64,000 nt of DNA. It comes from Treponema sp. (GTDB lineage Bacteria; Spirochaetota; Spirochaetia; Treponematales; Treponemataceae). Below the pieces are notes generated by a model. That model saw only the letters and a program-made list of their open reading frames with translations. It had not been told where the DNA came from and did not search any database. Location: positions 1 through 64,000 of the forward strand of contig JAILPY010000061.1 in the NCBI GenBank assembly GCA_024699235.1, written 5' to 3'. A program made the position numbers and the translations under genes. This document shows positions 20,776-22,121 of the stretch, piece by piece (within the stretch, counting starts at the first letter, position 1; the number at the start of each line of letters is the position of its first letter).

Positions 20776-21048
20776 ATGAAAGTCAAGCCATTGGCAGATC
20801 GTGTACTTGTAAAGCAGGCTGCAGCAGAAACAAAGTCAGCAGGTGGAATTATTATCCCAGATACAGCTCAGGAAAAGACACAGCAGGCTACAGTAGAAGC
20901 TGTAGGTCCAGGAACAGATAAAGAGAAAATTACTGTTAAAGTTGGTGATAAAGTTCTGTATGATAAATATGCTGGAACAGGCATAAAGATTGATGGAGAT
21001 GATTATCTTATTCTTAAGAATGCAGATATTATAGCAGTAATAGAGTAA
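20776..21048 (+). CDS. groES: Co-chaperonin GroES
   Basis: 'MKVKPLADRVLVKQAAAETKSAGGIIIPDTAQEKTQQATVEAVGPG'; SD TGGAGG; supplied ORF start (20686) is upstream of the true ATG. Confidence 0.97.
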   Translation: MKVKPLADRVLVKQAAAETKSAGGIIIPDTAQEKTQQATVEAVGPGTDKEKITVKVGDKVLYDKYAGTGIKIDGDDYLILKNADIIAVIE

Positions 21049-21137
21049 AATGCAATTTTGGGTCAAATTGTCATGTTAATTAAATTCTGTTTATAAAACT
21101 GTGGCAAAATGACTCAAAAAAGAAAATTAAGACCTTG

Positions 21138-21158
21138 AATGAGCAAAAATGGCTCATT
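21138..21158. promoter_or_regulatory. Perfect 7-bp inverted repeat about 110 bp upstream of the predicted sigma54 start site (candidate enhancer-binding site)
   Basis: AATGAGC-aaaaatg-GCTCATT. Confidence 0.4.
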
Positions 21159-21163
21159 TTAAG

Positions 21164-21226
21164 AGCATCAAACTTATGAAATCTGAGAAATTTTTATCTT
21201 CAGTACTAAGTTTGATGCTTTTTTTT
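21164..21226 (+). terminator. Intrinsic terminator downstream of groES with 13-bp stem and 30-nt loop
   Basis: AGCATCAAACTTA (21164-21176) / TAAGTTTGATGCT (21207-21219) followed by T8. Confidence 0.75.
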
Positions 21227-21230
21227 GTTT

Positions 21231-21246
21231 TGGCACGGATTTTGCT
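21231..21246 (+). promoter_or_regulatory. Sigma54 (-24/-12) promoter upstream of the sigma-70 factor gene
   Basis: TGGCACG-GATT-TTGCT, exact match to the core consensus TGGCACG-N4-TTGCW. Confidence 0.8.
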
Positions 21247-21281
21247 AGTAATTATATAGAATAATTTTGGAGGTTTGTGCT

Positions 21282-22121
21282 ATGACTAACGACGAAAATG
21301 TATTAAACATCTATCTGAAGGAAATTACAAAAATACCTCTTCTTTCAAATGAAGAGGAAAATGAACTTGCAAAAAAAGCTGCTGCTGGCGATAAAAAAGC
21401 AAAAGATAAGATTGTTAATGCAAATCTCCGTTTTGTAATTAATGTTGCAAAAAAATATCAGAATCAGGGCATTGATCTTGTTGACTTGATAAGTGAAGGA
21501 AATCTAGGCTTGCTTGCAGCAATTGATCATTTTGATGTTAATAAAGGCTATCATTTTATTTCTTATGCAGTCTGGTGGATACGACAGTCAATCCTAAAGG
21601 CTATTTGTGAAAAAAGCCGTCCTATTCGCCTTCCTCTTAACAGGGCAAATGAACTTGTTCAAATTGAAAAGACTCGCAAGCTTTTGTCTGGCAAGAAGAC
21701 TGAGAAGCAGGAAATTGAAGAAATTGGAAATCTTTTGAATATGGATAGTTCTCATGTCCGTGAAATGATTAATCTTTCTAGAGAGATGATTAGCCTTGAT
21801 TCTCCAGTTATAACAAGCGATTCAAATAAGGCTTCATTTGGGGACTTTGTTGAGGATACAAGATTTGCACAGCCTGATACGGCTGCTGTAGAAGAATTCA
21901 TGAAAAAAGACATTGATGAAGTTCTTAATACGTTAAAGCCAAATGAGGCTAAGGTTCTGCGCATGCGTTACGGTCTTAATGGATCTAAGCCAATGTCTCT
22001 TAAGGAAGTTGGCGATCTATGTAATCTTACCAAAGAAAGAATCAGGCAGATAGAAAAGCATGCTTTGGTACGCATGCAGCATCCTCGCCGTATGGAACGC
22101 CTTGCAGCTTACGTTGCTTGA
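21282..22121 (+). CDS. RNA polymerase sigma-70 family factor (RpoS/group-2-like)
   Basis: 'NVLNIYLKEITKIPLLSNEEE', 'DLVDLISEGNLGLLAAIDHFDVNKGYHFISYAVWWIRQSI', 'LTKERIRQIEKHALVRM'; SD TGGAGG. Confidence 0.93.
   Translation: MTNDENVLNIYLKEITKIPLLSNEEENELAKKAAAGDKKAKDKIVNANLRFVINVAKKYQNQGIDLVDLISEGNLGLLAAIDHFDVNKGYHFISYAVWWIRQSILKAICEKSRPIRLPLNRANELVQIEKTRKLLSGKKTEKQEIEEIGNLLNMDSSHVREMINLSREMISLDSPVITSDSNKASFGDFVEDTRFAQPDTAAVEEFMKKDIDEVLNTLKPNEAKVLRMRYGLNGSKPMSLKEVGDLCNLTKERIRQIEKHALVRMQHPRRMERLAAYVA

Follow-up and report, generated by a model that had tools for sequence, protein, structure and literature searches.

In Borrelia, the Rrp2–RpoN–RpoS cascade is established, with Rrp2 as the sole activator (PMC11109971). 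Activation of rpoS there has been reported to be enhancer-independent, according to the summary of that work given in a later article (Blevins 2009, cited in PMC11109971). The cascade has been described as something that B. burgdorferi 'has appropriated', and the descent of Borrelia RpoS from proteobacterial RpoS has been doubted by earlier authors (PMC6719511). Leptospira interrogans has been reported to lack RpoS (PMC12655853). The RpoN–RpoS cascade has been studied almost solely in Borrelia, and no report of its class-wide conservation was found in the open-access PMC literature; the conservation described below makes it a matter of the whole class.

The locus analyzed here lies in a 64-kb window (the whole stretch of DNA that was analyzed, 64,000 nucleotides from a gut-type Treponema) and, like the B. 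burgdorferi system, has a sigma-54 promoter before an alternative sigma-70-family gene; the genome also encodes an orthologue of the NtrC-type regulator of Borrelia, again with a kinase gene directly 5′ of it. Unlike in Borrelia, the sigma gene stands beside groES and its product is closer to short primary-type sigma factors, an upstream palindrome is conserved that is absent from Borreliaceae-like genomes, and Hsp20 genes share the sigma-54 promoter type. The combination of a REC–AAA (GAFTGA)–HTH_8 activator, a kinase, repeated upstream palindromes, and a -24/-12 promoter resembles NtrC-family control, whereas the motif (TGTGTCA-N3-TGACACA) and the targets (chaperones and a sigma factor instead of nitrogen genes) differ from those of NtrC systems. 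The features of the locus are as follows.

20776–21048, plus strand: groES (Cpn10), the upstream neighbour (Pfam Cpn10, 2.6e-32; tblastn of groES in the loci of relatives)
21059–21075, no strand assigned: putative enhancer copy 1, TGGGTCAAATTGTCATG, 10/14, starting 172 bp before the -24 box; left member of an imperfect pair
21100–21116, no strand assigned: putative enhancer copy 2, TGTGGCAAAATGACTCA, 12/14, starting 131 bp before the -24 box
21140–21156, no strand assigned: diverged enhancer-like copy 3, TGAGCAAAAATGGCTCA, 9/14, the weakest of the three, starting 91 bp before the -24 box; coincides with a perfect 7-bp repeat
21161–21230, plus strand: groES transcription terminator, a long stem followed by a T run up to the -24 box (RNA fold)
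21231–21246, plus strand: sigma-54 promoter, TGGCACGGATTTTGCT, -24 TGGCACG and -12 TTGCT (12/12 specified bases; class-wide conservation)
21269–21273, plus strand: Shine–Dalgarno sequence GGAGG (sequence)
21282–22121, plus strand: alternative sigma factor of the sigma-70 family, 279 amino acids, regions 1.2-2-3-4 (Pfam Sigma70_r1_2, r2, r3, and r4; tree)

The promoter has GG and GC doublets at fixed spacing in a TGGCAC-N5-TTGCW core. A preliminary description, made from the sequence alone, had read it as an exact match about 36 bp before a gene for a 280-residue protein; the match is confirmed at 12 of 12 specified bases, the distance to the ATG (21282) is 35 bp, and the product has 279 residues. 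Transcription is predicted from the sequence to start at about 21257, but the start has not been mapped. The strong Shine–Dalgarno sequence proposed at the same time is present, and the proposed strong groES terminator was borne out, since the fold of 21160–21235 reaches -22.1 kcal/mol (z -3.9) with the T run next to it, directly 5′ of the site; a simple terminator scan overlooked it because of its long loop. Rfam gave no match in the region, and no sigma-70-like promoter was found between the terminator and the sigma gene.

Within the window, TGGCACGGATTTTGCT is the sole exact match to the sigma-54 core, although a single 12/12 site in the window alone is merely suggestive and constitutes little proof. 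A genome scan, which the preliminary description had recommended and which was run as a pattern search (TGGCRYRN5TGCW, a looser form), gave 22 matches in the same genome, 18 intragenic and four intergenic, and all four intergenic matches lie 20–70 bp before a gene in the correct orientation. The promoter can be regarded as beyond chance because of this intergenic placement together with its conservation across the class. Elsewhere in the same genome, a 12/12 sigma-54 site (L124, C105:8358–8373) stands 27 bp before the gene for a 337-residue protein without a Pfam match.

The search for the sigma gene covered 98 genomes of the genus, 244 of the order, and 248 of the class, and upstream DNA was taken from several hundred loci. 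A sigma-54 site of at least 10/12 occurs within 160 bp in 252 of 265 distinct upstream regions of Spirochaetia orthologues, against about 2.4 expected from shuffles, and windows inside the same sigma genes never score above 9/12. No site of at least 10/12 precedes any of 64 homologues outside Spirochaetia or any of 16 loci of other spirochaete sigma genes (mostly RpoD), and in neither set does a score exceed 9. In the genus, 96 orthologue upstreams keep the GG/GC doublets, on whose conservation the preliminary description had staked its reading, and the same spacing, with protein identity falling to 47% and the neighbouring gene varying; this alignment was anchored on the doublets, so that the doublets were required. 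Only two further genus loci lack the site: one is truncated at a contig end, and the other, which has upstream DNA (L111 in G097), was rejected as an orthologue on account of its RpoD-like protein in the tree.

The site persists across the class although the flanking DNA diverges, irrespective of the neighbouring gene, and was found in 41 of 42 sampled families, two of which (f19 and f24) are represented by Borrelia-type rpoS genes. The sole family exception (f33; L306, L313) has lost both the site and the putative enhancer and has kept the regulator orthologue. Smaller departures are TAGCAT in place of TGGCAT in four T. denticola-like genomes and, in two members of family f30, a -12 GC changed to GT. 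In a T. pallidum-like genome of 1.1 Mb (G110), TGGCATGATATTTGCT lies 71 bp before the sigma orthologue. In many other Spirochaetia families, tblastn of the loci places groES next to the sigma gene, often divergently oriented; the divergent groES promoters have no sigma-54 site of their own except in one case, and no CIRCE element stands out there.

Alignment of the upstream regions of relatives exposed a 17-bp near-palindrome, TGTGTCA-N3-TGACACA. Its best copy reaches at least 11/14 in 206 of 256 upstreams, a count somewhat flattered because the consensus was derived from the same loci, compared with 2.4 in shuffles, but the gap is approximately eighty-fold; two or more copies of at least 10/14 are present in 159 of 256. 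Class-wide, the motif lies about 90–280 bp upstream at a variable distance, often in several copies. The preliminary description had pointed to a perfect repeat, AATGAGC-N7-GCTCATT (21138–21158), and an imperfect 16-bp pair (21058–21073/21102–21117), either of which might be an enhancer-binding site. Inverted repeats within the window alone do not exceed chance and become significant only in comparison with relatives. The two repeats exist and the enhancer proposal gains from that comparison, but they are not alternatives, since all are diverged copies of the same motif. This motif is likely the enhancer of the sigma-54 promoter, for which no binding data exist. The pattern TGNGNCANNNTGNCNCA was rejected as a single enhancer for the genome: its sole match is copy 2, and a copy before an Hsp20 gene deviates at the last base. 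In families f3 and f4 (L194–L213), the motif drifts towards YGTTTC-N5-GACACA; both regulators sampled from these families carry TLYQK in place of TLHRK in the recognition helix.

Both proteins that such a promoter would need, which the preliminary description had left to be sought, are encoded in the genome. The rpoN gene is intact (contig C166), with activator-interacting (AID), core-binding (CBD), and DNA-binding (DBD) domains, and P0002 (contig C68) is a complete NtrC-type activator in which REC, a Sigma54_activat domain with GAFTGA, and HTH_8 are combined and which adjoins a histidine kinase. No other sigma-54-activator-type protein found in this genome has that combination: P0003 lacks an HTH and P0004 lacks GAFTGA. 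A further activator may be missing from the assembly, which is 93% complete. At L004:1486–2349, an activator-type AAA protein with HTH_8 has no GAFTGA loop and probably cannot work with sigma-54.

P0002 is the orthologue of Borrelia Rrp2. It is present in all 37 genomes searched, at 54–93% identity, and is the sole activator common to them, the next-best activators being mostly below 50% identity. In three Borreliaceae-like genomes, it is the sole activator detected at E<=1e-30. The same holds for one other genome (G362, 98% complete), which combines a 12/12 site with a 12/14 enhancer copy; because no other activator was detected there at that threshold, elimination points to the Rrp2-type regulator as the one that drives the sigma gene. 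In larger Spirochaetia genomes, as many as 18 activator matches occur. Treponema shares the gene order holB–kinase–regulator, which murG and cvpA often precede, with Borreliaceae-like and other genomes, and in six genomes that represent five further families the regulator gene lies 3–14 kb from the sigma gene. Most palindrome-bearing species have TLHRK in the recognition helix, which is changed in palindrome-less lineages (TLHNK in Borrelia and in G322, TLYLK in the T. pallidum-like G110), with one exception, G222, which has TLHTK yet keeps a 12/14 motif. With so few lineages and this exception, a possible co-variation of helix and motif, read from sequence, is no more than a hint.

Of the three further intergenic sigma-54 sites in the genome, two precede Hsp20 genes, 62–67 bp upstream:

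C162:10704–10719: sigma-54 site of an Hsp20 gene (L129)
C57:19254–19269: sigma-54 site of an Hsp20 gene (L118)

Upstream of the former, TGTGTCATTTTGACACT (13/14) lies 67 bp before the -24 box, with a second partial copy. A small J-domain (DnaJ) gene adjoins the Rrp2-type regulator in the genus and does so, on the opposite strand, in a number of other families as well (loci L002:594–1100, minus strand, L446, L431, L432, L433, and L435). From the Hsp20 sites, the J-domain gene beside the regulator, and the frequent presence of groES next to the sigma gene, the best guess for the signal is inferred to be protein-folding stress.

It is considered quite probable that RpoN and the Rrp2-type regulator, through the upstream enhancer, switch on the sigma gene, which acts on a second gene set, and that they also activate Hsp20 genes. 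The histidine kinase and the regulator would sense a stress whose nature is inferred; the regulator would bind the TGTGTCA-N3-TGACACA copies 90–190 bp upstream (binding inferred by elimination) and drive open-complex formation by sigma-54 polymerase at the -24/-12 promoter. The newly made sigma factor may then redirect core polymerase to a second gene set, whose members are likewise inferred, while the same regulator and sigma-54 would activate Hsp20 genes directly; such co-activation would make protein damage or a related stress the probable trigger. The observed elements are the sites and their conservation, rpoN, the kinase–regulator pair, and the shared motif upstream of an Hsp20 gene. Against the mechanism stand the lack of transcript, binding, or mutant data, the weak matches of copies 1 and 3 in the window (10/14 and 9/14), the TAGCAT variant of the four T. 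denticola-like genomes, and family f33, which retains the regulator after losing site and enhancer. Short of experiment, rpoN, the NtrC-type activator, and the conserved doublets support the RpoN-to-sigma-70 cascade that the preliminary description had inferred. This reading gives a testable function to a poorly studied treponeme sigma factor, including that of the T. pallidum-like genome, names a likely activator and enhancer, and points to protein-folding stress as the signal.

Three other readings of the promoter region bear on this mechanism. The promoter could be sigma-54 dependent but served by another activator, either P0003 or one missing from the incomplete assembly, with the Rrp2 orthologue serving other genes. 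Without a DNA-binding domain, P0003 could act from solution, and the larger Spirochaetia genomes show how many activators may coexist; however, P0003 has no domain with which to read the conserved palindrome, and only the Rrp2 orthologue is shared by all 37 genomes and stands alone at E<=1e-30 in G362 and the three Borreliaceae-like ones, which leaves another activator unlikely. Palindromes of this general kind are targets of many dimeric regulators, and in the absence of binding data the motif might be read by an unrelated one (Crp/Fnr, Fur/PerR, or a repressor) rather than serve as a sigma-54 enhancer. Its distance of about 90–280 bp, variable and often multicopy, fits an enhancer, though, as does its recurrence upstream of another sigma-54 promoter of this genome, and its 17-bp odd-centred layout matches that of NtrC-type sites; an unrelated reader is thus given a rather small chance. 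Coincidence of the -24/-12 match, with transcription of the sigma gene coming from groES or an undetected sigma-70 promoter, would appeal to how common single matches are in a 2.8-Mb genome (18 of the 22 being intragenic), but it is already contradicted by class-wide conservation amid diverging DNA, whatever the neighbour, by the strong terminator after groES, and by the lack of a sigma-70-like site between terminator and sigma gene, and it is highly improbable.

The preliminary description had called the product RpoS-like, which is apt for its role and not for its descent. It shares with gamma-proteobacterial RpoS a group-2-type architecture (regions 1.2–4, no long N-terminal region), but it is only 37.5% identical to E. 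coli RpoS, scores 251.5 bits against the NCBIfam RpoS model (cut-off 378.7, and thus far below it), and is positioned separately in the tree. The sigma factors of Spirochaetia group in a single clade with bootstrap support of 93–96%, including that of G110, and E. coli RpoS and spirochaete RpoD are placed elsewhere; a second tree omitted the very long rows L276, L277, and L400, as well as L239 and L111. Outside Spirochaetota, the closest relatives come from Gemmatimonadota, Bacteroidota, and related phyla and are short primary-type sigma factors; those of Gemmatimonadota and Bacteroidota, which are housekeeping sigma factors, are 43–46% identical over the full length and mostly of the same size class, and have no sigma-54 site (the 0/64 above). 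Spirochaetia possess a separate long RpoD. It is absent among the four sigma-70 region-2 matches in the present genome (G000), most likely through an assembly gap at 93% completeness.

The comparable circuit that the preliminary description had suspected here is supported, but it is far older than that wording implied and class-wide, with the site in 41 of 42 families. Instead of being peculiar to that genus, the RpoN-to-RpoS switch of Borrelia looks like one form of an ancient stress circuit of spirochaetes, and the comparison suggests that its enhancer-independent activation is a derived loss. More tentatively, at somewhat under an even chance, the Spirochaetia ancestor had an Rrp2-type system that used sigma-54 and a dedicated enhancer to turn on small heat-shock proteins and a second sigma factor in a proteostasis response; the Lyme cascade would be a descendant of this system that lost the enhancer, and the promoter would persist in the syphilis spirochaete. 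A rival to this common descent, though not to the mechanism, is that the Borrelia cascade arose separately, the two having just the Rrp2 system in common and acting on different sigma genes. In free trees, Borrelia RpoS forms a very long branch outside the Spirochaetia clade, and its gene has a different neighbourhood, without groES beside it and without the palindrome; yet the AU test does not reject a single clade (p = 0.196), the two genes agree in promoter type and in activator orthologue, and both lie near the kinase–regulator operon in several families. Separate origin accordingly remains a serious possibility that falls just short of evenly balanced. In G322 (family f19; L441:2279–5000, L437:9659–12411), a very divergent sigma gene has a sigma-54 site and is followed by the two genes that also follow rpoS in Borreliaceae-like genomes, so the Borrelia arrangement predates the Borreliaceae-like family.
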